Part shown: one piece after another, positions 12,452 through 40,609 of the stretch
How positions within the stretch are numbered: the first letter of the stretch is position 1
How the letters are laid out: each line of letters starts with the position of its first letter
Assembly (NCBI GenBank): GCA_003265685.1
Contig: QJOU01000079.1
Location: forward strand, 1 to 45,888
Reading direction: 5' to 3'
DNA: 45,888 nt
Origin: Piscinibacter caeni
GTDB lineage: Bacteria; Pseudomonadota; Gammaproteobacteria; Burkholderiales; Burkholderiaceae_C
Translations under genes and position numbers: made by a program
Notes under the pieces: model-generated
What the model was told of the DNA's origin: nothing
Databases searched by the model: none
The model's input: the letters and a program-made list of their open reading frames with translations, nothing else

Positions 12452-12527
<76 letters not shown>

Positions 12528-23532: not shown

Positions 23533-24645
23533 TTACGAGGGCAGGAAATCGACCGGCCAGGTGACCACCATCTGGTCGACATCCTTGGCGCCGAAGTCGA
23601 AGCTGCGGATGCGGGCGAGCAGCTTCTGCTCCAGCTCGCTGGCGTGCAGTTCGCTGGACTCGACCTTCACGTCGACCACGTGGCCGGCCGGGGCGATGGT
23701 CAGCTTCACCACCACCTTGCCCTGCAGCGACGGATCGTCGCGCAGCGCGCGGTTGTAGATGGCGTAGATCGCACCCTTGTTGCGCTCGAAGACGAGCTTG
23801 ATGTCCTCCAGCGAGCGCGACGCCTTGCCGCTGCCGCCCTTGGTCAGCTTGCCGCCGGCCCCGCCGCCGCCCACGCCGGTGCCGTTGCCCGAGCCGTCGC
23901 CCTTGCCGCCGACGCCCAGGCCGCCGCCCGGGCCGCCGCCGCCGCCGCCGCCGATCGTGCCTTCCACCAGCGTGGTGCCGCGGCCCGCCAGGCCGCCGCC
24001 GCCGGTGTTGCGGCTGTAGCCGGCGGTGTTGATGCCGCCGCTGCCGTTGGTGGCGTTGGAGGTGATCAGCGCGCGCGTCGGGATGCCCGGGTCGGTGCCG
24101 GCGCCGACGCCGACGCCCGTTCCCGTGCCGATGCCCGGCCCGGGCTTGATGTCCTTGTTCAGCTGCACGGCGGTGGGCGCGAGCGCGAGCTGCGCCAGCT
24201 CCTGCTTCATCGCCATCAGGCCGACGCCGGCGGCCTTGCGCTTGGCGGCCTCCAGGTTCTCGCCCGGCTTCTTGCCCGGCACCGGGTTGCGTGCCTCGGG
24301 CACGGCCGAGGCCTTGGGCGGCTCGGGCCGCTTCGGCTCGGGGCGCGCGGCCTCGGGCTTGGGCGGCGCGTTCTCGGCCGCCTTGGCGAGCTGCTCGGGC
24401 TTGGGTGGCGGCGGCTTGGGCGCGGGCGCGGGCTCGCGCTCGAGCACCAGCTTGGCCAGTCGCGGCGGCAGCTCGGGCGGCGCGGCGCGGTTCTCCACCG
24501 GCCGCGGCAGCAGCAGCAGCACGATGCAGACCAGCGCGCAGATGCCCAGCACGATGCGCAGGATGCGCTTGAAGCGGGTCTCGTCCTCGAGCACGAGCGC
24601 CCACGGCAGCACCTGCGGGCGGAAGGTGATCGCGGCGCTGCTCAT
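23533..24645 (-). CDS. TonB-like AgmX/PglI C-terminal-domain protein
   Basis: 370 residues, single TM helix at about 29-46 after a cytoplasmic N-terminus. A Pro/Lys/Glu-rich spacer (48-135) and a very Gly-rich stretch (about 165-285) follow. The C-terminal domain (about 290-368), with ERNKGAIYAIYNRALRDDP and KVVVKLTIAPAGHV, is of the AgmX/PglI type seen with gliding-type TolQR motors. It probably transmits force from the ExbBD complex across the periplasm. ATG overlaps the ExbD stop by 4 bp. Last gene of the operon. Confidence 0.83.
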   Translation of the reverse strand: MSSAAITFRPQVLPWALVLEDETRFKRILRIVLGICALVCIVLLLLPRPVENRAAPPELPPRLAKLVLEREPAPAPKPPPPKPEQLAKAAENAPPKPEAARPEPKRPEPPKASAVPEARNPVPGKKPGENLEAAKRKAAGVGLMAMKQELAQLALAPTAVQLNKDIKPGPGIGTGTGVGVGAGTDPGIPTRALITSNATNGSGGINTAGYSRNTGGGGLAGRGTTLVEGTIGGGGGGGPGGGLGVGGKGDGSGNGTGVGGGGAGGKLTKGGSGKASRSLEDIKLVFERNKGAIYAIYNRALRDDPSLQGKVVVKLTIAPAGHVVDVKVESSELHASELEQKLLARIRSFDFGAKDVDQMVVTWPVDFLPS

Positions 24646-25130
24646 GTGGCCTTCTTCGTCACCGCGAAAGCGACGTCGCTGTAGTTGGCCCGCGCGGCGG
24701 TGTACATCACCTTGCGCAGCAGCGTGTAGGGGATGCCCTTGTCGCCCATGATCGTGACCTGCTTGTTCTGCGCCTCGTTCTCCTTGCGGATCACCTGGCG
24801 CGAGGACAGCACGTCGAGCTCGGCCTTCAGCGGCGCGATCAGGTCGTCGGTCGAGGCCATCGCCTGCGCGACGTCGGCGACCTTGCGGCCGTCGACCACG
24901 ATCTCGGTGCTGCTGACCGTGATCACGATGGTCTCCTTCGGGTCCTTCTGCGCGGTCGACTCGGGCAGCTTGACCGCGCGCGCGGTCGACAGCACCTCGA
25001 TGCCGGTGGAGGACATCAGGAAGAAGATCAGGATCGTGAAGATGTCGATCAGCGCGACCAGGTTCATGTCCAGGCCATGCTGATTGCGCGCATGGCGTTC
25101 GGCGCGCTTCTGGATCGGGGTGAGTTTCAT
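24642..25130 (-). CDS. ExbD/TolR-family protein with canonical Asp
   Basis: 162 residues. A single TM helix (about 24-40) carries Asp29 in LVALIDIFTILIFFL, the proton-path residue of the family. The periplasmic domain follows, with VDGRKVADVAQAMAS and VTIMGDKGIPYTLLRKVMYTA. It pairs with the neighbouring ExbB and the second ExbD. It starts 8 bp after that gene and its stop overlaps the TonB-like ATG. Confidence 0.88.
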   Translation of the reverse strand: MKLTPIQKRAERHARNQHGLDMNLVALIDIFTILIFFLMSSTGIEVLSTARAVKLPESTAQKDPKETIVITVSSTEIVVDGRKVADVAQAMASTDDLIAPLKAELDVLSSRQVIRKENEAQNKQVTIMGDKGIPYTLLRKVMYTAARANYSDVAFAVTKKAT

Positions 25131-25138
25131 GGCCTCCC

Positions 25139-25660
25139 CTACTTCTTCGCCGCGACGCTGATCGGCGCGTCGCCGATCGAGATGTCGGGGAACAGCACCG
25201 AGCGCGCCACCTCGGGCGTCGGCTGGCCCTTGACGTGCGGCGGCGGCAGCGTCTCGCGCACCGCGTCCATCACCTGCACGAGCATCTCGTAGGGCGTGTC
25301 GGGCTGGGCCAGCACGGTCGCCGCGGTGGTGTCCGGGAACTTGGCCTTGATCGCCTGCATCAGCGCCGACAGCGCGGGCAGGTCGTGCTCGGTGGCGCTC
25401 TTGGCGGGGATGCGCTGGATCAGCCCGCCGATGCGGTCGCCGACCTCGAGCGCGTCGGGGCGGATCACGACCTCGAGCTTCAGGTCGTCGACCTTGAGCT
25501 GCTCGACGCCGGCGGATTGCGCCGGCAGCGACAGCTCCACCACCGACAGCCGCGTGAACACCGCCGTCGACAGCAGGAACGGCACCAGCACGACGATCAC
25601 GTTGATGAACGCCGTGACCTCGAGCTCGGCCGTGCGCTTGCGCAGTCGTCTGACTCGCAT
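25139..25660 (-). CDS. ExbD/TolR-family protein with Asn replacing the TM Asp
   Basis: 173 residues with one TM helix at about 16-36. Where ExbD/TolR have Asp, the sequence reads TAFINVIVVLVPFLL: Asn20, codon AAC. The periplasmic part (about 45-170) contains TPYEMLVQVMDAVRETLP, like other ExbD proteins. It is probably a non-protonatable partner of the second ExbD in an asymmetric motor (inference). It lies 18 bp after ExbB. Confidence 0.82.
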   Translation of the reverse strand: MRVRRLRKRTAELEVTAFINVIVVLVPFLLSTAVFTRLSVVELSLPAQSAGVEQLKVDDLKLEVVIRPDALEVGDRIGGLIQRIPAKSATEHDLPALSALMQAIKAKFPDTTAATVLAQPDTPYEMLVQVMDAVRETLPPPHVKGQPTPEVARSVLFPDISIGDAPISVAAKK

Positions 25661-25678
25661 GATCGGCTCGGCGTCGGT

Positions 25679-26332
25679 TCAGCGCGCCGGGGCCGACTCG
25701 GCCTTCAGGCGCTGCACCAGGTTCAGGAAGCTGATCTTGGCGGCTTCGAGCCCGTCGACGATCTCGCTGGTGCGCGCCTGCAAGAAGGCGTGGATCAGCA
25801 GGAACGGGATCGCCACCGAGAGCGCGAACGCGGTGTTGTTCATCGCGATCGAGATCGAGGCCGACAGCATCTCGGCCTTCTCGGCCGGGTTGACCGCGGC
25901 CACCGCGGTGAAGCCCTTGATCAGGCCGATGATGGTGCCCAGCAGGCCGACCAGCGTGATCACGTTGGCCAGCGTGGCGATGTAGTGGGTGCGCTTCTCC
26001 AGGCGCGGCACGATCTCCATCATGCCCTCCTCCATCGCGTTGTCGATGTCCTCGCGGCGCGCCGGGCTCTGCATGCGCTCCAGGCCGTGCGTGACGATCT
26101 TGCCGATCGCCGCATCGGACTTGGAGGCCAGGCCCATCACCTCCTTGAAGCGGCCGTTCTGCAGCATCGGCAGCACCTGCGCCCAGAGCTGGCGGTTCTG
26201 CGCCCGCGCGCGGTTCAGGAAGACGAAGCGCTCGATGGCGATCGCCAGGCCGACGGCCATGATGGAGATGGAGAAGTAGATGGCAACGCCGCTGTCCTGG
26301 AAGAACTTGACGGCGAAATCGACGAGGGACAT
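25679..26332 (-). CDS. ExbB/TolQ/MotA-family proton channel
   Basis: 217 residues with three TM helices (about 15-35, 118-142, 165-188). The family signatures are visible: LEKRTHYIATLANVITLVGLLGTIIGLIKGF and SISIAMNNTAFALSVAIPFLL, including the TM3 Thr. A CAAGGAG site precedes the ATG. With the two ExbD proteins it should form a PMF-driven 5:2 motor. The 46-bp gap before it is the largest in the operon. Confidence 0.92.
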   Translation of the reverse strand: MSLVDFAVKFFQDSGVAIYFSISIMAVGLAIAIERFVFLNRARAQNRQLWAQVLPMLQNGRFKEVMGLASKSDAAIGKIVTHGLERMQSPARREDIDNAMEEGMMEIVPRLEKRTHYIATLANVITLVGLLGTIIGLIKGFTAVAAVNPAEKAEMLSASISIAMNNTAFALSVAIPFLLIHAFLQARTSEIVDGLEAAKISFLNLVQRLKAESAPAR

Positions 26333-26378
26333 GGACGGACTCCTTGAAAGACGAGGCGATTGGTTCTGCTAGCGGCGT

Positions 26379-26675
26379 TCAGCGGGCGGCCGGTGGGGCC
26401 GCTGCCGCGCTCTTGGACTGGATCTGGGCGTCGTACTGCACCTGGCGCCGGAAGACGTCGCGGTCGACCGGCGCGAGCGCCTCGTCGAGCACGCTGGCCA
26501 CCGGGCGCCCGGCCATGTCGCCGGGCAGCGGCTTCTTCCACGGCACGATGTACAGCACCTTGGGCAACTCGCGGTTGCCGATGATCTGGGTGCGGTCGAT
26601 GTCGGCCTTGTCCTGCGCGAAGGCGAGCGGCGCGGCGAGCGCCAGCGCGAGGCCGGTGAGTGCAATGCGCGTCAT
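26379..26675 (-). CDS. Small exported protein of the envelope operon
   Basis: 98 residues. Signal peptide MTRIALTGLALALAAPLAFA is followed by a conserved-looking core, RTQIIGNRELPKVLYIVPWK, and a disordered Ala-rich end. ATG 26675 overlaps the TPR lipoprotein stop by 4 bp; the longer frame to 26732 has no signal. The function is unknown. Its place between the TPR proteins and ExbB suggests a structural part of the machine. Confidence 0.75.
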   Translation of the reverse strand: MTRIALTGLALALAAPLAFAQDKADIDRTQIIGNRELPKVLYIVPWKKPLPGDMAGRPVASVLDEALAPVDRDVFRRQVQYDAQIQSKSAAAAPPAAR

Positions 26676-27388
26676 GAGGGCTCCTTCTTCGTGGCCAGCT
26701 TGTCCTTGCGGTTCTTCACCTCGATGGCCCACTTGGCCACCGCCTGGTCGCGCCCGCCGGTCAGCGCCTGGTAGCGCTCGTACAGCTCCAGCGCGCGCGC
26801 CGGCTCGTTGAGGTAGAGGTCGTTCAGGATGCCGAGGTTGAGCACCGCGGCGGCGTACTCGGGCTCGAGCTCGAGGGCGCGCTCGTAGGCCGCGCGCGCC
26901 TTCTGGAACTGGCCGGCGGCACGGTAGCTCAGGCCGAGCTGGTGGTGGAACTGCGCCTGCTGCGGGCTGGCCGCGACGGCCTTCTCCAGCGCCGCCACCG
27001 ACTCGGCGGTCTTGCCGGCCTGGCGGTAGATCAGCCCGAGGTTGGCGTGCGGGCCGCCGAGTTCCGGGTGCACCTGGGCGAGCGCCTTGAAGCCCTTCTC
27101 GGCCTCGTCGCTGCGGCCGGCGCGCAGCGCGCGTACCGCGTTGTCGTAGGCGCGCTGCACGGCCGGGTCGAGCGGGGGCTGCGCCACCACCGGTTCGGCC
27201 GGTTTGACCGGCGCCGAGGCGGGTGCGGCCGGCGCCGAAGCGGCCGGGGCCGGCGTCAAGGCATTGGCCACCGGCGTGACGACCGTGTCCTTGACCGCCT
27301 GCACGGTGTTCGACAGGGTCGAGCAGCCGCCGAGGGTGAGCAACGCGAGCAGCGCCGCTGCGCCGAGCAGTCGTTCAGCGGATCGCAT
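26672..27388 (-). CDS. TPR-repeat lipoprotein
   Basis: 238 residues. Signal peptide with lipobox TLGGC (Cys22), an Ala/Pro linker (about 40-75), then about four tetratricopeptide repeats (85-215), including GPHANLGLIYRQAGKTAESV and KARAAYERALELEPEYAAAV. Probably anchored to the outer membrane and binding other operon products. Start 27388 overlaps the upstream TPR gene by 14 bp. Confidence 0.85.
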   Translation of the reverse strand: MRSAERLLGAAALLALLTLGGCSTLSNTVQAVKDTVVTPVANALTPAPAASAPAAPASAPVKPAEPVVAQPPLDPAVQRAYDNAVRALRAGRSDEAEKGFKALAQVHPELGGPHANLGLIYRQAGKTAESVAALEKAVAASPQQAQFHHQLGLSYRAAGQFQKARAAYERALELEPEYAAAVLNLGILNDLYLNEPARALELYERYQALTGGRDQAVAKWAIEVKNRKDKLATKKEPS

Positions 27389-30203
27389 CGACGACCCCCT
27401 CGCTGCGCTCGACCTTGCCGAAACGCGCCGGCCGCAGCTTGGCCAGCGCGGCGAAGCTGCCCTTGACCCACTCGTCGTACACACCCGCCGTCGTGCGGCG
27501 CGCGTTGACCTCGTGCAGCTCGATCGCCTTCTCCTCGAACGGGAAGGCCTGCTCCTCGAGCATCACGTTGTACTGCTCCAGCTCGGCCTTGGAGAGCTTC
27601 TTCGGGCGCTGCGAGTTCATCAGCGCCTGGCCGAAGTCCTGGTACAGGTTGGCGGTGCGGAAGGTGGCCGCGGTGGTGACCTCGGCCACGCCGTAGTCGG
27701 CCGCCACGCCGTAGGCCTTCAGCACCTCTTCCATCTTGGCCTTCTTCAGCTTGAGCTGCCGCGCCAGCGGCTCGACCAGCGCCACCTTGCGGTAGGCCTC
27801 GAAGGTCGGCTCGGTGAGCGCCAGCGCGGCCAGGCCGCCGTGCATCTTCGTGCGCGGCGTGCGGGCGGCGCCGCCGCTGCGGTCGGCCTCGTAGATCTCC
27901 TTGGTCAGGGCCAGCTCGCGCGCCTTGTTGCCCTCGGCCTTGGCCAGCGCGAGCAGCTTGGCGCGCGCTTCCACGGCCGGCTCGAGCGGCTGCGGGTACT
28001 GCTTGACGTAACGCTCCCAGCTCCTGGCCGCGAGCGGCTTCGCGTTGCCCTTCTCGTACAGCTCGGCGGATTGCCACAGCGCGTCGCGCGCCACCTGCGG
28101 GTCCTTGCTCGTGCCGGCCAGGCGCTCGAACTCGCCGGCCGCTTTGTCCCACTGCTGCTTCTCGAGGTAGGCCACGGCCAGCTTGCCGCCCACCTCGCCG
28201 GCCAGCGGGTGGTTCGGGTAGCGCTGGCGGAAGTCCTCCAGCGTGCGCGCGGCGCCGTCCCAGTCCTTCAGCGCGATCTGCGCGGCCGCCGCGTCGTACT
28301 GCGCGTTGGCGCGGATGCTCGACGTCGGTGCCACCACGGCCACGCGCGAGAAGGCCTCGACCGCCGCCTTGCCGTCGCCGGCCGCACGCGCCTGCTCGCC
28401 CTGCTTGTAGACGGAGGCGGCGAGCCGCTCGGTCAGCTCGTTGCGGGCCGGGTCCTTCTCGGGCACCAGCGCCAGCACCTCGCCGTAGGCCTGCTCGGCC
28501 TTCAGGAAGTCGCCCTTGTCGAAGGCGCCGTGCGCGATCACGGTCCAGGCGACGCGGCGCTGCTCCGGCCTGGCCGGCGGCTGCAGCGCGAGCACCTGCT
28601 GCGCCACCTCGCCGGCCCGCTCGTCCTTGATCGCGAACAGCTTCTCGGCGGTGTTGGTCAGCACGGCGCCGGTGCGCGGGTCGCTCGGGAAGGCCTTGGC
28701 GAAGCGCAGCGAACTCTCCACCGCCTGCTTCTGCAGCGCCGGCAGCTCGGCCGGCGCGGCCGTCTTCTCCTGGCCCGCGTAGGAGAGCAACGCGGCATAG
28801 CCCGCGTCGGCCGCCTTGGCGTGGTTCGGGTACTGGTACGCCACCTTCTCGTACTCGACCGCGGCCTCGGCGAGGCGCTTGTCCTCGTACAGCAGCTCGG
28901 CGAGCAGGAAGTTGTTCTGCGCCGTCTCCGGGTCGTCCGGGAACGAGGCGATGTAGGCGCGGTACCAGCGCACCGCCTCCTGGTAGTCGCTGCTCGCCTT
29001 GCTCTTCTGCGCGCTCGCGTGGTAGTGGCGTGCCAGCTCGGTCAGGTGCGTCTTGACGAGCGGCTGCGCCTTCTCCCAGCCGGCCGGGTTGGCGCGGCGG
29101 AACTCGGAGTCGATGCCGTATCGCGAGACGTAGTCCTTCTTGGCGTCGAGCGCCAGCGTGGCGAAGCCGTTGCGCTGGTAGATCTCGATCACGCGCGCCT
29201 GCAGCTGCGGCGCCTGCGCGTGCAGCGGCTGGCGGCGCGCGAACGCGCTCCAGGTGTCGGCCGCGTCCTTCACGCGCTCCTGCTTCAGGTAGAGCTCGCC
29301 GAGCTGCTCGTACACGAGGTACTCGTAGCTGCGCCGCTCGTCGCTCGTGATGAACGGCGGGATGCTCTCGGCGCCCTGCAGGTTGTTCAGCGCCAGGCTG
29401 GTGACGCGGAAGGTGTCCTCCACCAGCTCGCGGTCGGCACGCGACAGGCCCTCGAGCGAGTCGAGCCCGCCCTCCCCGGCGCGGCCGGCGACCTTCAGGT
29501 CGAGCACGCCGAAGAACGAGCGCAGCGACTCCTCCAGGCGCGACTGCTTGAACTGCGACCAGCCCTGCATGTACAGCGCGCGCTCGCGGAACGGGTTGGC
29601 GTCGCCGCCGCCCAGCACGGTGGCGTAGGCCTGCTCGGCCTTGGCGTACTCGCGCGTGCTGAACAGCAGCTCGCCGCGGCGGAACTCGGCCTCGGCGCGG
29701 AAGGTGGTGTTCGGGTGCGCGGCGACCAGCCGGTCGAGCGTCTTCAGCGACACCTCGAGCTCGCCGTTCTGCTCCTGCGCGCGCGCGAGCTGGTAGAGCA
29801 CGCGGTCGTTGCCCGGGTCGTTCGGGTAGGTCTTCAGGTACTCCTGGTAGCGCGCGATCGCGGCTCGGTAGTCGGCCGCGCCGTTCGGGCCGGCCTGCCC
29901 GGCGGCGAGCCGGTCGTCGGCAATGTCCATCTCCAGGTCGCCGATGCGGCGCATCGCCTCGGCGCGCTGCGGTGCCTTGGGCGCCACCTCGAGGAACTTG
30001 CGGTAGGCCGCGATCGACTTCTCCGGCGTCACCTCGACGCCGCGGTCGGCCTCGACCGGCAGTTCGCGGCCGGCCAGGGTCTTGAGCGTGGGCTCGTTGT
30101 CGGGCTTCGCGAGCTTCTTGCTGCCGCAGCCAGCCAGCAGGCCCAGCGTCATGGCGGCCAGCGCGAGCGGCAGCAGCCGGGGCTTACTGGGCGGCCGGCG
30201 CAC
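27375..30203 (-). CDS. Large TPR-repeat lipoprotein
   Basis: 942 residues from GTG 30203, chosen because AAAGGA lies upstream and it gives a signal peptide with lipobox LLAGC (Cys26). The whole mature part is a TPR/Sel1-like superhelix: AIARYQEYLKTYPNDPGNDR, FLLAELLYEDKRLAEAAVEY and DFRQRYPNHPLAGEVGGKLA are examples spread over the length. A longer ATG frame to 30362 lies inside the upstream gene and lacks a signal. Comparable large TPR proteins accompany gliding-type TolQR systems. Confidence 0.83.
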   Translation of the reverse strand: MRRPPSKPRLLPLALAAMTLGLLAGCGSKKLAKPDNEPTLKTLAGRELPVEADRGVEVTPEKSIAAYRKFLEVAPKAPQRAEAMRRIGDLEMDIADDRLAAGQAGPNGAADYRAAIARYQEYLKTYPNDPGNDRVLYQLARAQEQNGELEVSLKTLDRLVAAHPNTTFRAEAEFRRGELLFSTREYAKAEQAYATVLGGGDANPFRERALYMQGWSQFKQSRLEESLRSFFGVLDLKVAGRAGEGGLDSLEGLSRADRELVEDTFRVTSLALNNLQGAESIPPFITSDERRSYEYLVYEQLGELYLKQERVKDAADTWSAFARRQPLHAQAPQLQARVIEIYQRNGFATLALDAKKDYVSRYGIDSEFRRANPAGWEKAQPLVKTHLTELARHYHASAQKSKASSDYQEAVRWYRAYIASFPDDPETAQNNFLLAELLYEDKRLAEAAVEYEKVAYQYPNHAKAADAGYAALLSYAGQEKTAAPAELPALQKQAVESSLRFAKAFPSDPRTGAVLTNTAEKLFAIKDERAGEVAQQVLALQPPARPEQRRVAWTVIAHGAFDKGDFLKAEQAYGEVLALVPEKDPARNELTERLAASVYKQGEQARAAGDGKAAVEAFSRVAVVAPTSSIRANAQYDAAAAQIALKDWDGAARTLEDFRQRYPNHPLAGEVGGKLAVAYLEKQQWDKAAGEFERLAGTSKDPQVARDALWQSAELYEKGNAKPLAARSWERYVKQYPQPLEPAVEARAKLLALAKAEGNKARELALTKEIYEADRSGGAARTPRTKMHGGLAALALTEPTFEAYRKVALVEPLARQLKLKKAKMEEVLKAYGVAADYGVAEVTTAATFRTANLYQDFGQALMNSQRPKKLSKAELEQYNVMLEEQAFPFEEKAIELHEVNARRTTAGVYDEWVKGSFAALAKLRPARFGKVERSEGVVDAIR

Positions 30204-32091
30204 GGTCGTCCTTTCGCTGCGCGGTGGCGCGATCGTAGAGCTGCGCGACGGCAAAACGCGCCTGGGTCGCGTACACCGCCAGGCGCTCCTTCTGGCGCTC
30301 GAGTTCGGCCACCGCCAGCTCCTGCACCTGGCCCTGCTGCTCGTTCGACAGGGCCGCGACACGTGGCACCAGGCCCTGGATGCGCCCGCCGAGCGCCTTG
30401 ATGCGTTCGGCGAAGCGCTCGAAGCGCGCCGGCTCGTCGCGCTGCGCCTGCTCGAGCGCCGCGTCGAGCCGCTGCGCGTCGGCGATGCCCGCGTCGATGG
30501 CCTGCAGGCCCTTCCTGGCCTCCCACAGCCGCGCCGGGTACTCCTGCGTCAGCTGCCAGATCAGCGCGCCGCCGGCCAGGCGGGCACGCTCGCGCGCGGC
30601 CGGATCGGCATCCGCGCCGAGCGCCTGCAGGTTGGCGCGCACCTCCTCGATGCGCGCCATCAGCGCCTGCTGGCGTTCGTCGGCGAAGGCCACGCCGTCG
30701 GCCGCGGCCTCGGCCGCCTGCACCTCGGCGGTGACGGCGTCGCGCCGCTTCGCCAGCGCCGCGATGTCGGCCGCGCTGGTGCGCTCGCGCACCTTGGGCA
30801 GCCGCTCGGCATAGGCCTGCCGGCGGTTGGCCAGCATGTCCTCGAAGGCGACCAGATTCTCCTGCCAGCCCTTCAGGTTGTCGGCCAGGAAACGCAGGTC
30901 GCGGAAGTTCTTGAAGGCCTCCTGGAACTCGTGCTGCGCCAGCACCTGCGCCAGGTGGCCGGCGTGCGGCATCTCGGGCAGCGCGTCGATGGCCCAGAAC
31001 CAGCCCATCTGCTCGCCCGGGTTGCGCTCGAGCAGGCCGTTGACCAGCGTGCCGGAGCGGATCGCGGCGATCGACTCGTCGAGGTTCTTCGCCTCCTGCT
31101 CGAAGGTGGCGATGGCCTGCTCGTAGCGCTCGAGGGCCTGGCCGAAGGCGCCCAGCTCGGCATACGCGTAGGGCACGGCGATGTGCGCCTCGAGCACCGC
31201 GGAGTCGCTGATGTCGCGCTGCACCAGCTCGCTCCAGGGCACCAGTGCCTTGCGCGGCTCCTTAAGCTCGGCGGCGGCCCAGCCGAAGCCGAGCAGCGCC
31301 TTGTTCGAATGCAGGCTGGCCAGGCGCACCCGCTCGAGCGCCTGGCGCGCCGCCTCGGGCCGGCTCGACTGCAGCGCGCTGTAGCCGAGCGCGACGTTCG
31401 CCTTGTCGCGCAGGCTGCGCAGTTCCTCGCCGGGCAGTTCCTTGGCCTGGCCCACCTCGTCGAGCAGCTTCTCGCCGCGCTCGCCCTCGCCGCCGCGCAC
31501 CAGCGCCACGCCGAGGTTGAAGCGCGCGTACAGGCTGGCGTTGCTCTTGGCCGGCAGGTTGCCGAGGACCGCCGCGGCGCCGGCGTAGTCGCCCTTGGCC
31601 ATCAGCAGGTTGGCGTGCAGCAGCACGCGCTCTTCCTCGAGCGCGGGCGGCAGGTTCTTGCCGATCTTCGTGACGGCCTCTTCGGCCGCGTCGACCAGCC
31701 CGCGCTGGTAGCGGATCTTGGCCAGGTAGAACCAGGCGCGGTCCTGCGTCGCCGGCGAGGCGCCGCGCTCGATCAGCGAGGCGAAGATCTCGCCGGCCTC
31801 GCGGTGCAGGCCGTAGGACAGCAGCATGCCGCCGCGCAGGATCTCGGCCTCGTCGTCGTGCGGCGCGATGCGGCCGAACTCCTGCGAGGCCATCAGCGTG
31901 GTGATGGCGGTGAAGTACTTGTCCTGGAAGAAGTGGAACAGCGTGTCGCCATAGTGCGGGGCCTGCACCGGGCCGGGCTTCTTCGGGGCCTCGGCGCCAC
32001 TCGCGGCCACGCAGGCGCAGGCCAGCGCGACCGCGCCCGCGGCGCGGCGCCAGTTCGAGCGACGGGATCGACGGCTCACGAGACGACCCAC
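30184..32091 (-). CDS. Exported TPR protein
   Basis: 635 residues starting at GTG 32091, which shares its G with the stop of the previous gene. A signal peptide (about 1-33) is followed by TPR-like repeats to about 330 (YGLHREAGEIFASLIERGA, RAWFYLAKIRYQRGLVDAAEE), then a helical, coiled-coil-rich C-terminal half (400-635). It overlaps the next TPR gene by 20 bp. Periplasmic scaffold of the operon's complex (inference). Confidence 0.83.
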   Translation of the reverse strand: MGRLVSRRSRRSNWRRAAGAVALACACVAASGAEAPKKPGPVQAPHYGDTLFHFFQDKYFTAITTLMASQEFGRIAPHDDEAEILRGGMLLSYGLHREAGEIFASLIERGASPATQDRAWFYLAKIRYQRGLVDAAEEAVTKIGKNLPPALEEERVLLHANLLMAKGDYAGAAAVLGNLPAKSNASLYARFNLGVALVRGGEGERGEKLLDEVGQAKELPGEELRSLRDKANVALGYSALQSSRPEAARQALERVRLASLHSNKALLGFGWAAAELKEPRKALVPWSELVQRDISDSAVLEAHIAVPYAYAELGAFGQALERYEQAIATFEQEAKNLDESIAAIRSGTLVNGLLERNPGEQMGWFWAIDALPEMPHAGHLAQVLAQHEFQEAFKNFRDLRFLADNLKGWQENLVAFEDMLANRRQAYAERLPKVRERTSAADIAALAKRRDAVTAEVQAAEAAADGVAFADERQQALMARIEEVRANLQALGADADPAARERARLAGGALIWQLTQEYPARLWEARKGLQAIDAGIADAQRLDAALEQAQRDEPARFERFAERIKALGGRIQGLVPRVAALSNEQQGQVQELAVAELERQKERLAVYATQARFAVAQLYDRATAQRKDDRAPAAQ

Positions 32092-32663: not shown

Positions 32664-32671
32664 CGTGAACC

Positions 32672-33769
32672 TCAGTAGGTGGCGGTCACGTAGACCTGGA
32701 ACAGCGAGCCGATGAAGGAGTACTTGCTGCCGTCCCGGACGTCGGTGAAATCCTTGTAGTTGAAGCGGTAGGCCTCGAGCGCACCGTTCACCTTGATGTC
32801 GTACTCGCCCTTGTAGCGGCCGGCCGAGTAGGTGAGCTTGGCGCCCAGGCCGATGCTGTCGAAGGTGCCGAGCTGGCGGTTGCGCGACACGTAGGTGGTC
32901 TCGCTCTGCGCGTTGTCGCTGTAGAAGTTGGCCTTGCTCTGCTTGTAGTAGCGGCCGAAGCCCTCGGCCAGCCACTTGTCGCCGAAGTAGCGCGCGTAGC
33001 CGGCTTCCAGCGTGTGGGCCTTGATGGCCCAGTTGTCCCAGAAGTAGCGGTACTCGCCGCGCAGCGACTGGCGATCGCCGATCTCCTTGAGCGAGCGCAG
33101 CTTGATGGCCCGGCTCGAGCGCGTGCGCGGGTGGCGCTCCGGCACCGTGGCGCCGGACACGCGCGCGGCGCGGTACGGATTGCCGAGGTAGCCGTCGTCC
33201 GAGACGACCTCCAGGTTGGCGCTGGCCAGCCAGGTCGGGCTGAGGATCTGCGTCAGGCCGAAGCGGTACTGCCAGTGCCGCGCGGTGTCGAAGAAACCCT
33301 CGCCCTTGCGCCCGACGTCGTCCGAGCCGCGCGTGAAGCCGAGCGCGACGGTCGTCATGTTGCCGAACACTTCCTGCGTCACGTCCAGCCCGAACGAGCG
33401 CGCCTTGTAGTCGGGCTCCTTGCTCTGGTAGAGCGACAGCGAGACGGTCGAGTCGCGCACCACGTAGTCCATGCCGAGGTCGAAGGCCTGGCGCGTCTCG
33501 CTGAACTTGCTGGCCGTGGTGACCACGTCGATCGACGCGTTGCTGACCGCGTCGACGTAGTAGCCGGCCGACAGCGAGACGCGGTCGGCCATGCTCTTGC
33601 GCACCAGCAGCGCCGGGCCGTGCGCGGTGACGCCGCCGCCGGTGTAGACGTGGTAGAGCGCCTCGCCGCGGTCCTCCGGCAGGTCGACGGCCTTGGCGCC
33701 GTGCGTGGCCAGCAGGCTGCCGAGCAGGCCCAGCAGGCGCTGCCACCAGGGGCGGCTAGTTGCAGCCAC
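32672..33769 (-). CDS. DUF3570 outer-membrane beta-barrel
   Basis: 365 residues from a GTG with GGGAGG before it. Signal peptide 1-27, then alternating beta strands with aromatic ends, finishing ...FQVYVTATY as for outer-membrane barrels. YLGNPYR and PERHPRTRSSRAIKL are DUF3570 hallmarks. The family is recurrently linked to DUF4266, TlpA and ApbE genes, as here. It overlaps the DUF4266 gene by 14 bp. Confidence 0.87.
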   Translation of the reverse strand: MAATSRPWWQRLLGLLGSLLATHGAKAVDLPEDRGEALYHVYTGGGVTAHGPALLVRKSMADRVSLSAGYYVDAVSNASIDVVTTASKFSETRQAFDLGMDYVVRDSTVSLSLYQSKEPDYKARSFGLDVTQEVFGNMTTVALGFTRGSDDVGRKGEGFFDTARHWQYRFGLTQILSPTWLASANLEVVSDDGYLGNPYRAARVSGATVPERHPRTRSSRAIKLRSLKEIGDRQSLRGEYRYFWDNWAIKAHTLEAGYARYFGDKWLAEGFGRYYKQSKANFYSDNAQSETTYVSRNRQLGTFDSIGLGAKLTYSAGRYKGEYDIKVNGALEAYRFNYKDFTDVRDGSKYSFIGSLFQVYVTATY

Positions 33770-33985
33770 AACCGCCTCCCTGCGTGCCGGTGGCGCCGCG
33801 CGAACCCTCGCGCACCACGAACACGTGCTCGCGGTGCTTGTCGGGCAGCGCGGCGCGCGAGAACTTCATGACCGGGTCGGCCAGCCGCTCGCGCTCGTAG
33901 GGCTTGACCCAGGGCTGCGGCGCGGCGCAGCCGGCCAGCAGCGCCGCAGCGGCGGGCAGGACAACGGAGGCAAGTCGAAACACGG

Positions 33986-33989
<4 letters not shown>
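33756..33989 (-). CDS. DUF4266 small lipoprotein
   Basis: 77 residues: signal peptide with lipobox LLAGC (Cys21), WVKPYERERLADPVMKFS core, and an extreme C-terminus GGGCGCN (Cys74, Cys76), the DUF4266 signature. The ATG overlaps the TlpA stop by 4 bp. The paired terminal cysteines could be a thiol or metal site; adjacency to a thioredoxin-like protein fits redox handling (inference). Confidence 0.9.
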
Positions 33990-34498
<509 letters not shown>

Positions 34499-34518
34499 GT
34501 GGTGGATCCCTGGATGGT

Positions 34519-35184
34519 TCAGAAGAAGTAGGAGACGCCCGTGGTCAGCTCGAGGTGGTTGCGGCGGGCGTCGTCGCCGAGGATGTCGAGCTTGAGGATG
34601 TGGTCGCGCAGGTCGACCTGCACGCCGAAGCGGTCGTGGAACATGACCCGCATGCCCAGGCCGACGTTGATGGTCTGGCGCTTCAGGTCGCCGCGGCCGG
34701 TGTTGAACTTCGTGCTGCCGACGCCGGCCATCAGGTAGACCTGCGAGGCGAAGGCGCGGTTGCGACCGACGAACACCTCGCCCGGCAGCACGTTCCATCC
34801 GGCCGAGAGGTTGTAGTAGGCCAGCGGCTCGTTGCGGCTGGGCAGCGGGCCGCTGTCCGGGAAGATGTTGCGGAAGGCCTCGTCGCTGATCTTGGTGCGC
34901 CCGTAGGTGCCCTGCACGAAGAAGTCCTCGGTGATGTGGTAGCCCAGGCGCAGGCCGCCCACCGCACTGGAGCCGAAGTTCTCGGTCGCGTACAGGCCGC
35001 CGTAGAGGCCGATCTCGAAGTCCTTGGACGGGAACTTGGGCAGGCGCAGCTCGCGCCGCTCGACCTCCGGCTGGATCACCTGCTCGTTGGACGGCTGCTG
35101 CGGTGCCGTCTGGGCCAGGGCGGCCGGGCCGGCCAGCGCGAGCAGCGCGGCGGCGAGGACTGTGCGTGCTTGTTGTTGTCGCAT
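34519..35184 (-). CDS. Outer-membrane beta-barrel protein
   Basis: 221 residues. Signal peptide (cleavage near ALA-QT, 24), then a DFEIGLYGGLYATENFG start and strands ending TTGVSYFF with C-terminal Phe, the outer-membrane insertion signature. About eight strands are likely. It forms a pair with the SH3-barrel protein encoded 4 bp upstream. Confidence 0.8.
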   Translation of the reverse strand: MRQQQARTVLAAALLALAGPAALAQTAPQQPSNEQVIQPEVERRELRLPKFPSKDFEIGLYGGLYATENFGSSAVGGLRLGYHITEDFFVQGTYGRTKISDEAFRNIFPDSGPLPSRNEPLAYYNLSAGWNVLPGEVFVGRNRAFASQVYLMAGVGSTKFNTGRGDLKRQTINVGLGMRVMFHDRFGVQVDLRDHILKLDILGDDARRNHLELTTGVSYFF

Positions 35185-35188
35185 GGCG

Positions 35189-35965
35189 TCAGAAGAAGAA
35201 GGACAGGCCGGCCGCGATGGCGCGGTATTCGGTCGAGCGCGTGTCGGAGACGAACGCGGTGTAGATCGAGTAGTCTGCCCGCAGCATGAAGCGCTCGGTG
35301 AGGTAATAGCGCACGCCGAGGGACGCATTGGCGAGCTTCGCGTCGGTCGGCGTCGCATCCACCAGGCTGGCGTTGGGGATGTTCTTGAACTTGCCGAAGC
35401 CGATCGCGAAGAACGGCGAGATGCGCTGGTCCGACCAGGGCTCGGCCTGCACGTTCAGGTGCCAGAAGTCGGAGCCGGAGAACTTGCCCTGCACCTGGCC
35501 GACGGTCAGCTCGGCGCCCAGCGTGTCGGCGAAGCGGTAGCCCAGCCAGACCTTGAGCATCGGCTCGGATTCGAACTTGCCCCAGCCCGCGCCGAGTTCG
35601 ACCTTGCGGCGCAGGTAGTCGTCCAGCAGCACGTCGCGGAAGCTCTTCGAGACGCCGGCCTCGGTCATCGTGCTCTCGAGCTGGCGGCGCTGCACCCAGC
35701 CCTCGCGGCCGTTCTCGGTGCGCACCTTGAACCAGTCGGTGAAGCGCAGCTCGATGACGATCCATTCGTCGCGCGCGGCGACATGGTGGATCGGGTAGCC
35801 GCGCCCGGGGCCGGTGCGCATCTCGATGTAGGGCTCGGTGATGCGCACGCGCTCGATGCGCGGGGCCTCGTCCTCGGCCCGGGCCGGCGCGGCGGCCAGC
35901 AGGCCGACGGCCAGCGCGCCTGCGGCGAGCAGCCCGGACACCAGGCTCGGTCTCGGGCGGCTCAT
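35189..35965 (-). CDS. SH3-domain / outer-membrane beta-barrel protein
   Basis: 258 residues: signal peptide to ARA (30), a bacterial SH3 domain (about 38-98) with YIEMRTGPGRGYPI and WFKVRTENGREGWVQ, then a beta-barrel ending in FFF. SH3 domains of this type often bind peptidoglycan, so it may tie a small barrel to the wall. Its ATG overlaps the previous stop by 4 bp. Confidence 0.82.
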   Translation of the reverse strand: MSRPRPSLVSGLLAAGALAVGLLAAAPARAEDEAPRIERVRITEPYIEMRTGPGRGYPIHHVAARDEWIVIELRFTDWFKVRTENGREGWVQRRQLESTMTEAGVSKSFRDVLLDDYLRRKVELGAGWGKFESEPMLKVWLGYRFADTLGAELTVGQVQGKFSGSDFWHLNVQAEPWSDQRISPFFAIGFGKFKNIPNASLVDATPTDAKLANASLGVRYYLTERFMLRADYSIYTAFVSDTRSTEYRAIAAGLSFFF

Positions 35966-36588
35966 TGGGTCAGGCAGTTGCCGTTGGCGACGTCGCCCCC
36001 CTCGAAGAGGTTGGCTGCGGCGGCACCGAACTCGTCCTGCCCGACCGGCATCGGGTGGCTGATCCAGTAGGCGAAGACCTTGGCGTTCGGGTCGTCGGCG
36101 CTCTCGAAGATCAGGCCGCCGCCATGCAGCGTGCCGCGCACCATCGGCTTGTTGAGCATGCGGCTCTCGGTGGGGGCGCCGATCACGGTGGAAGCCTGCG
36201 ACGAGTAGAAGCTGACGTAGATCGGCGCGGCGCGGATCTCGTCGGCCCGCGCGCTCAGGTCGGCGGTGAGGTTGGCGATGTCCGGCGCGGCGCCGATCAG
36301 GCGCAGCGCGCCGCCGGTGCCGGTGGAGTTGTCGTGGCAGCCGTTGTTCGCGCAGGTGGCGATCGACGCCTGGCCGTTCTGGCGGATCGTCAGTTGCGCC
36401 AGCAGGATCGGGTTGATGCAGCGCTGGAAGTAGGCGAACGACAGCTTCTGCCCCGACTGGCCCGGCGGGTTCTGGATGTCCGGCGGGTTCGACAGGGGAC
36501 TGCCGCCGCCGCAGGCCGCGAGCAAAAGCGCGGCGGCCGAGGCCGCCGCGGCTTGCCGCGCAGGGGAAAGGCGCGAACGAAGCGTCAT
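35962..36588 (-). CDS. Lipoprotein with CX4CH haem-like motif
   Basis: 208 residues from ATG 36588, which overlaps the previous stop (ATGA); an ATG 2 codons upstream is also possible. Lipobox LLAAC (Cys26). Cys57 in YFQRCINPIL and then C79-ANNG-C84-H85 form a motif with four residues between cysteines, not the usual two. The layout resembles small cytochrome-like domains. Haem attachment is unproven. Confidence 0.75.
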   Translation of the reverse strand: MTLRSRLSPARQAAAASAAALLLAACGGGSPLSNPPDIQNPPGQSGQKLSFAYFQRCINPILLAQLTIRQNGQASIATCANNGCHDNSTGTGGALRLIGAAPDIANLTADLSARADEIRAAPIYVSFYSSQASTVIGAPTESRMLNKPMVRGTLHGGGLIFESADDPNAKVFAYWISHPMPVGQDEFGAAAANLFEGGDVANGNCLTQ

Positions 36589-39578
36589 GGGCATCCGCCG
36601 GAGATCCAGGTCCGGATGGTGTTGTAGTTGGTGCCGTTGGCCGGCAGCGGCACCGGCGCGCTGGCCGCCCCGGCCGGGTGCGGAGCCGTCGACGGCCGCG
36701 CCAGCAGCGCGTTGCTCTCCGGCGCGCAGGTGTTCGAGATCATCGACAGCGTGACGTTGAAGTCACCCTCCTCGCTGCCGGTCAGCACGAAGCGGTTGTT
36801 GCGGAACTGCGTCGCCGTCTGGGCCGCGCCCGAGCTGCCCACCGGCTGGTGGCAGGAGGCGCAGTCGGCCTGCAGGATCGGCAGCACGTTGGCAACGAAG
36901 GCCTCTTCGCTGAGCCTGGCGAGCTGCACCGGGCTGCCGTCGGCGTTCAGGTCGTTGTAGTACTGGCCGCCCAGGTCGACCCACTCGGTGACGAGCCGCT
37001 TCTCGGCCTTGTTCAGCATGGTCGAGTGGTCCACCGTCGTCGGCGTCGGGTGTGCGGTGCGCGCCGCGGCACTCGACTTCAGCGTCTGGCCGAACAGGAT
37101 CTCGATCAGCCGGCTGGAGCGGGCCAGGCCCTGCGCATTGCCGGCGTCGGTCTCCACCAGCGCGGCGCCGCGCACGATCTCCGGCACGCCGTCGCGGATC
37201 TGCGTCACCGGCAGGCCGGTGGCCTCGTCGATCACCGGGTCGCCGAGCACCAGTTCCTCGTAGGAGACCAGCCGGCCGGTGCCGGCGGTGGTGCCCTGCA
37301 GGCTCAGCGCCTCGGTGTCGGCGTGGCAGGTGGTGCAGGTCTGGGTGCCGTTGGGGCCGCGCACGCGGCTCCAGATCGGCTGGATGTGCGTCGGGTAGTT
37401 GATCAGCCCGCGCGCCGGCACCGCGGTGGCCAGGTCGTCCGCCGGGTTGGTGTTGCCGGTGTACTTGATCTCGATGGACGGACGCGCCGTCACGCCCGGG
37501 TGGCTGGTGTCGGCCCACACGTCGGTGAAGATCATGTCGGGCTTCAGGTTGATCAGGTCCGGCGTGGCCGGATCGTTGGTGCGCAGGTTGGCCATGGTCT
37601 GGCCCGGCGTGTGCTGGGCCACCAGCGCCGGGTTCAGACCGGCCGGCAGCGCGTCGGCGGTCGCGCCGGTGTTGATCGAGGCGCCGCGGCGCGGGCTGTG
37701 GCAGCCGTCGCAGGTGCGGCGCTCGCCCGGGCGGACCTGGATCCAGTTCAGGTGGGTCTGCAGGCCGCGGCCCTGCGCGTCGGTGATCACCAGCGCGAGC
37801 GGGGTGTCGGCCGGTACCTTCATCCGGAACGAGCCGTCCGGCTCGATCGGCGCATAGCCGAGGATCTGCTGCGGCTCGAAGTCGGTCTCGCCGATCGCCT
37901 CGCGCATGCCGCTCATGCCGGCCTGCGGCGCGACGGCGCGGATGGCCCGCACGAAGCGCGCCGGCGAGCAATGCCAGGCGGCGTCGGTGGGCGTCTTCAT
38001 GCGCACCAGGTCGGCGATCCGGGCGCGGGTCTCGGTCGGGTCGGTCTCGCCCGAGGTCGACCGCGTCGCGATGCCGGCGTCACAGCCGGCCGGCAGGTCG
38101 GCCGCGGCGATCACCGGTTCACCCATGCGCTGCAGGCCGTCGGTGTCGTAGATGCTGCGCACCTCGAGCAGGCCGAGGTCCTGCGCGGCCAGCGCCGGGT
38201 CGACGCTGGTGGGTTCGACCACGTTCGGCCGGTCGCGCTTCTGCAGCGCGATCGGGTCGGTGTACATGAAGCCGGCCGACGGGCTGGCCACGTTCAGCCA
38301 GGTCTGCTTGGCCGGGTCGTACATGTAGATCGCGTAGGCCGCCGGTGCGTTGTCCTGCACCGAGTCAGCGGCGACCTCCTCGCGGGTGCGCTCGCCGTCC
38401 TGCAGGCGCGCGCGTTCCGCGTCGGTCAGGTTGGCGCAGGGGATCACCTGGCCGTCACGCGTCACCGTGCAGGGCCGGTAGGCCACCAGCACGCGGTCGG
38501 TGCCGTCCCACAGCGGGAACGGGGTGGTGATGCGGCCGAACTGCGACAGCCCGCGGTTCTGGTTCAGCGGCTCGGGCGTCACCTCGACCTGGCCGGCGAC
38601 CGAGGCGGGGTTCTTCGTCGCCGGGGTGTTGTTCTCGGAGTAGTTCTTCGCGTCGATGAACATCAGCGAGCCGCCCTCCTGCGTGCGCGACAGCGCCATC
38701 AGCGAGGACGACACCTGGCCGGCGTACTTGCCCTTCGGGTCCATGTCGCGCGGGTGCAGGAAGCTGTTGCCCGGGCTGTGCGCGCCGTAGAGCACGAACA
38801 TGTCGGTGCCGTCGGGCTTGACGCGGAAGATCGCGAAGCGATTGCGCATGCCCACGTGTTCCCAGCGCGAGAACATGATGTCGCCGTTCGGGCGCACCAC
38901 CGGGTTGCGGTCGTGGCTCTGGTTCGACGAGATCTGGGTGATGTTGCCGCCCTCGTCGTCCATCGTGTGCAGGTTGATCACCGACTCGCGCTCGTACTCG
39001 TCCAGCGCGAGGATGGTGCGGCCGCCCTGCACGGTGCGGGTCTTGGTCTGGCGGTTCGACGAGAACACGAAGCCCCCGCCGGGCAGGTAGGCCGGGTCGA
39101 CGTCGTCGAACTGGTTCGAGTTCGTGACCCGACGCAGCTTGCCGCCGGCGAAGCCGCCGGTCGTCATGTCGTATTCCCAGATGTTCCAGCGGCCCGTGCA
39201 GGCGGCCGCGCCGTCGATCGTCGAGGTGTTGTCGCTCGGGCACTTGAGCGCGAAGACGACCTTCTTGCCGTCGTACGAGACCTCGGGGTCGGACGCGTCG
39301 CCCCGGCCCTGGGTGATGGCCGCGGTGATGTTGTGCTCGGTGGCCGACGGCGAGGACTTCTCGCGGATCATCAGGTCGCCGCCCGGGGCACTGTTGGTGC
39401 CGTCGGTCGGGTTCATCGACAGCGCCGTCGAGCGCTTCACGTAGGCCAGCGGCACGTCGCCGTTGACGGTCACGCCCTCCGAGTCGCTGCCGCCGGAGCA
39501 AGCGGCGAGCACCGCCAGCAGCAGCACGGCCAGCGCCGCAGGCAGCGGCGATCGGATCCTCAGGTTCAGGTTCTTCAT
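36585..39578 (-). CDS. Tri-haem beta-propeller lipoprotein, HZS-alpha-like
   Basis: 997 residues, GAGGAGG site before the ATG, lipobox LAAC (Cys27). A PD40-type propeller (about 60-470) has motifs such as PEVSYDGKKVVFALK and PNGDIMFSRW. A segment at about 570-630 (EPDGSFRMKVPADTPLAL, RPGERRTCDGCH) matches the hydrazine synthase alpha middle-domain style. Three CXXCH haem sites: 623-627, 748-752, 906-910. No other anammox genes are present, so it is more likely an electron-transfer or oxidoreductase lipoprotein. Confidence 0.83.
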   Translation of the reverse strand: MKNLNLRIRSPLPAALAVLLLAVLAACSGGSDSEGVTVNGDVPLAYVKRSTALSMNPTDGTNSAPGGDLMIREKSSPSATEHNITAAITQGRGDASDPEVSYDGKKVVFALKCPSDNTSTIDGAAACTGRWNIWEYDMTTGGFAGGKLRRVTNSNQFDDVDPAYLPGGGFVFSSNRQTKTRTVQGGRTILALDEYERESVINLHTMDDEGGNITQISSNQSHDRNPVVRPNGDIMFSRWEHVGMRNRFAIFRVKPDGTDMFVLYGAHSPGNSFLHPRDMDPKGKYAGQVSSSLMALSRTQEGGSLMFIDAKNYSENNTPATKNPASVAGQVEVTPEPLNQNRGLSQFGRITTPFPLWDGTDRVLVAYRPCTVTRDGQVIPCANLTDAERARLQDGERTREEVAADSVQDNAPAAYAIYMYDPAKQTWLNVASPSAGFMYTDPIALQKRDRPNVVEPTSVDPALAAQDLGLLEVRSIYDTDGLQRMGEPVIAAADLPAGCDAGIATRSTSGETDPTETRARIADLVRMKTPTDAAWHCSPARFVRAIRAVAPQAGMSGMREAIGETDFEPQQILGYAPIEPDGSFRMKVPADTPLALVITDAQGRGLQTHLNWIQVRPGERRTCDGCHSPRRGASINTGATADALPAGLNPALVAQHTPGQTMANLRTNDPATPDLINLKPDMIFTDVWADTSHPGVTARPSIEIKYTGNTNPADDLATAVPARGLINYPTHIQPIWSRVRGPNGTQTCTTCHADTEALSLQGTTAGTGRLVSYEELVLGDPVIDEATGLPVTQIRDGVPEIVRGAALVETDAGNAQGLARSSRLIEILFGQTLKSSAAARTAHPTPTTVDHSTMLNKAEKRLVTEWVDLGGQYYNDLNADGSPVQLARLSEEAFVANVLPILQADCASCHQPVGSSGAAQTATQFRNNRFVLTGSEEGDFNVTLSMISNTCAPESNALLARPSTAPHPAGAASAPVPLPANGTNYNTIRTWISGGCP

Positions 39579-39604
39579 CTTCGCCTCCTCTGTACCGTTA
39601 CGGC

Positions 39605-40609
39605 TCACTGCCGCTGCGCCTGCGCGCCCAGCAGACCCGACGAGTAATGCAGCGCTCCCGCCGCATCCACGATCACGGCATCGACGCCGGGCTGCGACTC
39701 GACCAATCGCAATCCGTCTTCGACGCCGAGCACGAACACACTCTTGGACAGCCCCTCGCTGGTCAGCCCGTCGGCGGCCAGGATGGTGACGCTGCGCACG
39801 CGGTCGGGGCTGCGGCCGCTGCGCGGGTCGATCAGGTGGTGGTGGCGCACGCCGTCGCGCTCGAACCAGCGCTCGTAGTCGCCCGAGGTGGAGATCGCGA
39901 CGTCCTCGAGCGGCAGCACGGCCACGATGCCGGCGGCGTCGCGCGGGTCGCGGATCGCCACCGTCCAGGGCCGGCCGCGCCGGTCGCCCAGGATGTGGCT
40001 GTCGCCGCCGGCCGAGACCATCGCGTGGCGGATGCCGTGGCGGCGCAGGATCGCCACGCCGTTGTCCACCGCGTGGCCCTTGGCGAAGCCGCCCAGGTCG
40101 ATGCGCATGCCGCGCCGGCCGAAGCGCAGGCTGCGCGTGCGCTCGTCCAGCTGCAGGTGCTGCCAGCCGATCAGCGCGCGCGCCTGCTCGCGCTGCGCCT
40201 CGCTGGGCGCCGTGCCGCTGCGGTAGTCGTACAGCGCGCCGACCGAGGCATAGGTGATATCGAAGGCGCCGCCGGACAGGCGCGAGAAGGCGATCGCCTG
40301 CTGCAGCAGGCCCCACATCTCGTCGGACAGGCGCACCGGCGCGTCGGCCGCGTCGCGGTTGATGCGCGACAGCTCGGACTGCGGCTTGTGCGGGCTCATC
40401 GCCCAGTCGATGCGGTGCATCTCCTGCATCACCGCGTCGATCGCGGCCTCGCCGGCGCGGCGCTCGTCGCACCACAGCTCGACGCGGATCGCGGTGCCCA
40501 TGATGGCCTCGTCGCGCGCCAGCCAGCCGCCCGCTTCGCGGACGGACTCGGCCACCGCCGCGGGACGCGGCGGGCTGCGACGCAAGGCGCTGGACAGACC
40601 GAAGAGCAT
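39605..40609 (-). CDS. apbE: ApbE-family FAD:protein FMN transferase
   Basis: 334 residues from ATG 40609; a start at 40690 (361 aa) is possible. IDLGGFAKGHAVD, VSAGGDSHILG, STSGDYERWFE and HHHLIDPRSGRSP are the ApbE motifs for FAD and Mg binding and FMN transfer to a Thr or Ser. First gene of the 17-gene operon, 26 bp before the haem lipoprotein. No signal peptide is clear with the chosen start. Confidence 0.88.
   Translation of the reverse strand: MLFGLSSALRRSPPRPAAVAESVREAGGWLARDEAIMGTAIRVELWCDERRAGEAAIDAVMQEMHRIDWAMSPHKPQSELSRINRDAADAPVRLSDEMWGLLQQAIAFSRLSGGAFDITYASVGALYDYRSGTAPSEAQREQARALIGWQHLQLDERTRSLRFGRRGMRIDLGGFAKGHAVDNGVAILRRHGIRHAMVSAGGDSHILGDRRGRPWTVAIRDPRDAAGIVAVLPLEDVAISTSGDYERWFERDGVRHHHLIDPRSGRSPDRVRSVTILAADGLTSEGLSKSVFVLGVEDGLRLVESQPGVDAVIVDAAGALHYSSGLLGAQAQRQ

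Follow-up and report, generated by a model that had tools for sequence, protein, structure and literature searches.

A conserved seventeen-gene operon of Piscinibacter caeni links a predicted outer-membrane redox block to an Agl-Glt-like motor gene set

Do genes for flavin, haem and thiol chemistry that lie in one run with genes for a motor driven by the proton-motive force (PMF) encode a single machine? The question is raised by a 45,888-nucleotide stretch of Piscinibacter caeni DNA (GenBank assembly GCA_003265685.1, contig QJOU01000079.1, positions 1 to 45,888; hereafter the window), in which seventeen minus-strand genes run from 40609 down to 23533. A first-pass annotation had described these as an operon with no gap above 46 bp and nine overlaps, and had proposed that a redox half (apbE, hzsA, a CX4CH lipoprotein, an SH3-barrel, a second barrel, tlpA, DUF4266 and DUF3570) and a motor half (exp9, tpr10, tpr11, tpr12, small13, exbB, exbD1, exbD2 and agmX) are fused in one transcript for one trans-envelope machine. 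Translation of the window showed that all seventeen are open frames and that the described layout is exact to the base: the largest gap, 46 bp, separates small13 from exbB, and overlaps occur at hzsA/CX4CH, CX4CH/SH3-barrel, tlpA/DUF4266 and DUF4266/DUF3570 on the redox side and at exp9/tpr10, tpr10/tpr11, tpr11/tpr12, tpr12/small13 and exbD2/agmX on the motor side. The family names were backed by profile searches (Pfam, NCBIfam), the CX4CH lipoprotein and small13 having no Pfam match. Terminator-like sites within the operon were no more frequent than in shuffled sequence (7 against 7.3).

The association of the two halves was then examined in 323 evenly drawn genomes of the class Gammaproteobacteria. 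DUF4266 was present in 81 of these, HZS_alpha, the middle domain of hydrazine synthase alpha, in 53, and the AgmX/PglI domain in 78; the last count uses only the 92 rows over the cut-off, the domain being found in 156 genomes at E 0.001. DUF4266 and AgmX occurred together in 61 genomes (odds ratio 40). When the redox block was defined as HZS_alpha within 7 kb of DUF4266, which places 20 of the 62 HZS_alpha matches outside the definition, it was found in 41 genomes from 26 families. All 41 had the AgmX domain, compared with 37 of the 282 others (p 1.5e-30, a value inflated by relatedness). Where DUF4266 was solely of the other type, which is mostly short, the domain was present in 20 of 40 genomes, against 17 of 242 without DUF4266; G403 and G215 were counted as short-type though HZS_alpha is present on another contig. 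A single AgmX gene over the cut-off was found in 35 of the 41 block genomes. The domain alone is no proof of a complete core.

Proximity gave the same picture. DUF4266 and AgmX lay no more than 25 kb apart in 23 genomes of 18 families, where about 0.7 would be expected (0.71, for 3.5 Mb genomes), and every one of the 23 belongs to the 41 block genomes. In 14 of these pairs, which span 11 families, the genes share one strand with agmX 10-14 kb downstream; seven pairs are divergent and 20-21 kb apart, and in two agmX is upstream on the same strand. A phylum-wide sample of 249 genomes (HZS_alpha in 10, DUF4266 in 18) supplied three further block genomes, each in one or two contigs, and all three had AgmX over the cut-off: G678 and G690 carry the fused operon, and in G643 AgmX is about 110 kb from the block. 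Where the first-pass annotation had allowed that the halves might rarely travel together, the opposite was thus seen, and because the motor marker accompanies the block in 41 of 41 genomes, within 25 kb in 23, the idea of one system is supported well beyond the window.

A second survey used named loci, the best 80 of at least 520, of which 79 were scored; because certain of these come from genomes also present in the class sample (L162 and G190:C3, for example), the surveys are not independent of each other. SH3-barrel, barrel, TlpA, DUF4266 and DUF3570 were all present in 54 of the 60 named loci with at least 4.5 kb downstream. Motor-half genes were in the fetched stretch of 49 of the 79, and among the other 30 genomes 27 had AgmX over the cut-off elsewhere and one more had exp9, which was sought in the three AgmX-lacking exceptions and in seven controls (7/7 positive).

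The order of the genes is also kept. Locus L282 of G678, a single-contig, 100% complete genome of the same genus, carries all seventeen genes on one strand in the window's order, with proteins 55-91% identical to those of the window. When the G678 locus, extended by about 1 kb past agmX and 10 kb past apbE, was compared with the whole window, similar DNA was confined to pieces within 23534-40516; the surroundings of the operon therefore differ between the two species. The nearest relative among the best 80 of at least 520 named loci is a Piscinibacter metagenome-assembled genome (82% identity in the best hzsA segment). Over the window and 13 other sampled one-strand loci (L068-L080) the order SH3-barrel, barrel, tlpA, DUF4266, DUF3570 and then exp9, tpr10, tpr11, tpr12, small13, exbB, exbD1, exbD2, agmX is kept, interrupted in some by insertions of apbE or other genes; L080 has further genes before exp9. 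apbE precedes hzsA in five of these 14 loci, the window included, and follows DUF3570 in four; the fetched stretch of the remaining five showed no apbE. The recurrence of this gene set, in one order, across many related bacteria makes it look like one machine, and the operon is a real, conserved and widespread gene system.

Across loci the module boundary falls between DUF3570 and exp9. Loci such as L108-L111 and L113-L117 have motor-half genes and no block (tpr12 was not found in L109-L111), and L118 and L122 have exbB, exbD and agmX only. In L096, L101 and L107, exp9 and TPR genes come after the redox block, but no motor genes were found over the next 3-4 kb; these genomes have complete cores at other sites. 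This arrangement recalls the Nfs system, which, in the available part of its description, uses an AglRQS motor encoded elsewhere (PMC3858216). In many genomes the halves are divergent or apart; together with the three loci lacking an adjacent motor, this indicates that one transcript is not essential.

Each half resembles a set of genes already in the literature. The motor half is like the standalone Agl-Glt/Nfs core, of which the available text describes one ExbB, two ExbD, a GltG-type TonB-like protein and TPR proteins in a cluster (Luciano 2011, PMC3169522; Wartel 2013, PMC3858216): the window has one AglR-like gene, two AglQ/S-like genes, a TonB-like GltG-type gene and TPR genes in one cluster, a GltE-like lipoprotein among the TPR set. 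According to the accessible portions of these papers, the standalone core also has an extra gene without Myxococcus homologues (PMC3169522), and the gammaproteobacterial version was left without a function in both 2011 and 2013. In contrast to the core as described there, a redox block is joined to it here; the words 'thioredoxin' and 'cytochrome' are absent from the 2011 main text. The redox half is like a published cluster in which ApbE, DUF3570, DUF4266 and a thioredoxin lie close together, found in a survey that took five genes on each side (Meheust 2021, PMC8238504). It differs from that cluster in the added hzsA-like haem lipoprotein, two barrels and motor, and in an altered flavin attachment motif. 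The available 2021 text termed the function of the DUF3570/DUF4266 cluster uncertain; it contains neither 'ExbB', 'biopolymer' nor 'hydrazine', and 'TonB' once, in another context. In searches of an open-licence library, which leaves out most subscription papers, that survey was the only paper found to name DUF3570 or DUF4266, and no description of a motor-redox link was found. The standalone Agl-Glt core and the DUF3570/DUF4266 cluster, both of them orphans, are partners in many Gammaproteobacteria, and each is a handle on the other.

The proteins of the motor half were considered individually. The first, exp9 (32091..32663), is an exported protein with a signal-like helix, a long helix and a beta-sandwich. 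It is followed by tpr10 (30184..32091), an exported TPR protein (TPR_19 1.6e-4, below cut-off), tpr11 (27375..30203), a large TPR lipoprotein (TPR_6 1.4e-26), tpr12 (26672..27388), a GltE-like TPR lipoprotein (NF033758 7.9e-16, below its cut-off), and small13 (26379..26675), a small exported protein identified by its reading frame and present in most motor loci. GltE, GltG and GltJ profiles showed similarity to operon proteins, all below the curated cut-offs; GltC and GltD gave no match when profiles alone, and not M. xanthus sequences, were used, and the assignment of tpr10 and tpr11 as their respective counterparts is a guess. The channel protein is an ExbB/TolQ type (25679..26332; PF01618, MotA_ExbB, 1.7e-25), and exbD1 (25139..25660; PF02472 2.3e-13) and exbD2 (24642..25130; PF02472 2.3e-16) encode two unlike ExbD proteins. 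The transducer agmX (23533..24645) has an AgmX/PglI C-terminal domain (NF033768 2.8e-18), matches the GltG profile at 2e-13, below its cut-off, and matches the TonB C-terminal profile TIGR01352 at 29.2 bits (cut-off 27.1). The operon is in these respects like TonB-ExbBD, from which it is distinguished by the two unlike ExbD and by having no match to a TonB-dependent receptor family.

The channel Asp has an established role in ExbBD and MotAB. Over linked and standalone cores it is present in ExbD2 in 74 of 74 rows, and the corresponding position of ExbD1 is Asn in 71 of 73 (one Asp, one gap), as it is in the window. This differs from Myxococcus AglRQS, where AglQ and AglS each carry a conserved channel Asp, according to the part of a review that was available.

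In the redox half, apbE (39605..40609; the start may be 40690) encodes an FAD:protein FMN transferase (PF02424 1e-80). By eye no clear signal peptide is seen at its N-terminus in the window (39605-40690) or in L282; most other linked loci seemingly have one and the ApbEs of short clusters seemingly do not. The next gene, hzsA (36585..39578), encodes a lipoprotein with the HZS_alpha domain (PF18582 8.5e-19). Its alignment with hydrazine synthase alpha (structure 5c2v_A, 8e-19) covers the middle domain with its haem motif and a C-terminal EWxDxGAQ segment and extends more weakly, in pieces, to the propeller region; unlike 5c2v it is a lipoprotein with three CXXCH. The earlier description as a 'tri-haem propeller' is therefore upheld for the three CXXCH, the propeller itself being weakly matched (PD40 0.042). 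No family named as hydrazine synthase beta or gamma was among the Pfam/NCBIfam matches of the seventeen genes, no direct comparison with those subunits being part of this search. The CX4CH lipoprotein (35962..36588) has one CANNGCH motif. It is followed by an SH3 domain fused to an outer-membrane beta-barrel (35189..35965; PF13505, OMP_b-brl, 2e-8; PF06347, SH3_4, 1e-5), a second outer-membrane barrel (34519..35184; TIGR04565 4e-42), a TlpA/ResA-like thiol-disulfide oxidoreductase with WCGPC (tlpA, 33986..34498; PF00578, AhpC-TSA, 1.4e-32) and a small DUF4266 lipoprotein ending in GGGCGCN, a CXC motif (33756..33989; PF14086 3.6e-22).

The last gene of this half, DUF3570 (32672..33769; PF12094 9.5e-40), is predicted to form a 16-strand outer-membrane barrel. 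Its AlphaFold2 model, made for this one of the three barrels, has 16 long strands at fair confidence (pLDDT 83.6, pTM 0.76), and the structures that it matches are outer-membrane barrels, including porins. A C-terminal aromatic residue is common in all three families (DUF3570 103/106 rows, SH3-barrel 96/99, barrel 94/96).

The redox block exists in two forms. That of the window has the third CXXCH in hzsA together with the CX4CH lipoprotein, homologues of which were found in five other loci of the class sample, where each hzsA has the third, C-terminal CXXCH. The commoner form has an hzsA with two CXXCH and a nearby extra cassette comprising a one-haem protein (DUF1585-like, a weak match), a LamG protein bearing two CXXCH and a protein whose start is twin-arginine-like. 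These were found in 74, 72 and 59, respectively, of 91 commoner-form loci, and in 0 of 18 CX4CH loci, 0 of 58 without hzsA or DUF4266 and 0 of 12 with DUF4266 but no hzsA; the subtypes were assigned by profiles built in this analysis, and some loci in these counts, as in the DUF3570-site counts below, are pieces of one contig. An example of the cassette lies between divergent operons at L084:10634-15974.

That the seventeen genes are one functional unit, in which motor and redox block serve one pathway, is very probable, and the shared pathway is well supported. The best explanation of the whole, to which we give an even chance, is a trans-envelope system in which the motor energises or assembles an outer-membrane redox complex. 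In such a system ExbB, the ExbD1/ExbD2 pair and AgmX would form a proton-driven motor working like the Agl-Glt type, and exp9 and the three TPR proteins would carry its work across the periplasm. The client would be a redox complex of the two barrels, the DUF3570 barrel (possibly bearing covalent flavin mononucleotide, FMN), the CXC lipoprotein DUF4266, the thioredoxin TlpA and the haem lipoproteins related to hydrazine synthase alpha; the motor would drive its assembly, opening or positioning, and the complex would move electrons between periplasmic thiols and an outer substrate. Physical coupling, the motor's effect on the complex and the electron direction are what we infer beyond the gene order, families, co-occurrence and barrel model: direct action of the motor on the complex is evenly balanced, and an outward flow of electrons is somewhat less probable than not. 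A bolder version, in which an Agl-Glt-like motor with one proton-Asp ExbD mechanically gates or moves a barrel-haem-thiol/flavin complex and so spends inner-membrane energy on surface electron transfer, is rather unlikely. If it were true, the standalone core and DUF3570/DUF4266 would both gain a function at once, and powering surface electron transfer by the motor would be an energy coupling without precedent found in the open-licence literature. As the fused operon is available in single-contig genomes, deletion tests can be designed.

Several observations weigh against the motor and redox block forming one machine. In 37 of the 282 genomes that lack the block the motor marker is present, and the motor therefore has other uses, which is one of the weaker points of the one-machine proposal. 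Two of the 79 named genomes (G491 and G495) have neither AgmX over the cut-off nor exp9, and in other loci the hzsA-to-DUF3570 block stands alone or divergent. The interior of exbB has two weak promoter-like sites (2 against 0.6 expected), and hence an internal promoter may be present within the operon. Once species descent is allowed for, divergence in one half hardly follows that in the other: the partial r is 0.30 over 17 genomes (50 of 5000 permutations as high) and 0.08 without the window genome. On a tree of 72 motor copies, a quick one without a mixture model and limited to loci with exbB and both exbD, the linked label needs eight changes; linked motors are thus not one clade, though they are more clustered than shuffled labels (mean 16.2).

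The flavin chemistry proposed by the first-pass annotation adds to these points. ApbE, DUF3570, DUF4266 and the thioredoxin are indeed together, but the conserved site of the window DUF3570 reads D73xxSNAS79 (residues 73-79) and not [ST]GA[ST], the attachment motif published in the available 2021 text (PMC8238504); its sole SGAT sits in a non-conserved stretch. Among 92 DUF3570 rows of the clade the site is canonical in 16, variant in 74 and unmatched by the pattern in two, one of which (L200) reads TGAS by eye. The variants found include SSAS (52) and TSAS (16), with SGAS in 16 and others besides; short-type rows are canonical in 9 of 10. Of the 92 rows, 37 come from loci in which apbE was found, and its presence does not track with a canonical site (p 0.40). 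Since the motif departs from the published one in the window, as in most of the clade, covalent FMN on DUF3570 is uncertain. In the model D73xxSNAS79 spans the last part of strand 3 and the long loop that follows, on the longer-loop side, which would face outward if both chain termini are periplasmic. The window genome has a second DUF3570/DUF4266 pair (L088, G000:C93), with apbE about 5 kb away and two canonical [ST]GA[ST] motifs.

The separation of the halves in many genomes, the motors without a block and the lack of correlated divergence beyond species once the window genome is omitted would suit two machines in one regulon, co-transcribed for the same condition and never in contact. This is the strongest rival, yet an unlikely one: against it stand the 41/41 dependence and the constant gene order of fused loci across 11 families, and the three loci with block, exp9 and TPR genes but no adjacent motor hint at contact with the TPR proteins. 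Less probable again is an export machine, in which the surface placement of haem and other lipoproteins is the task of the motor and TPR proteins, TlpA and DUF4266 only helping to mature these lipoproteins. Several operon products do have lipobox-like sequences, and the haem set varies between the CX4CH and LamG/DUF1585-like forms as barrels and motor stay constant. However, in 7 of 10 short loci examined, barrels and haem lipoprotein are absent and TlpA, DUF4266, DUF3570 and ApbE are still found together; these four therefore probably have a redox role of their own.

A TonB-like AgmX with ExbBD also brings to mind energised uptake, the barrels importing a metal or other ligand in the manner of TonB-dependent receptors and the redox parts reducing it; the available 2021 text reports a ferrous-iron transporter in 25 DUF3570 clusters (PMC8238504). 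We consider this very improbable, as a Pfam profile search found no receptor plug family in the operon barrels, the DUF3570 model resembles porins among other barrels, and none of the few flanking genes scanned is a metal transporter. Surface motility, by a gliding machine with accessory redox proteins, is scarcely credible: to the GltE, GltG and GltJ similarities, all below cut-offs, must be opposed the statements in the accessible 2011 text that most bacteria carrying the standalone core have not been documented to glide and that its genes do not suffice for gliding (PMC3169522).

Downstream of the operon lies a class-II glutamine amidotransferase gene and upstream, divergently, a PHA synthase gene. 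A genome of the same order (G014:C1) has four HZS_alpha matches, none beside DUF4266. The window also contains a tRNA-Ala (CGC) at 12452-12527.

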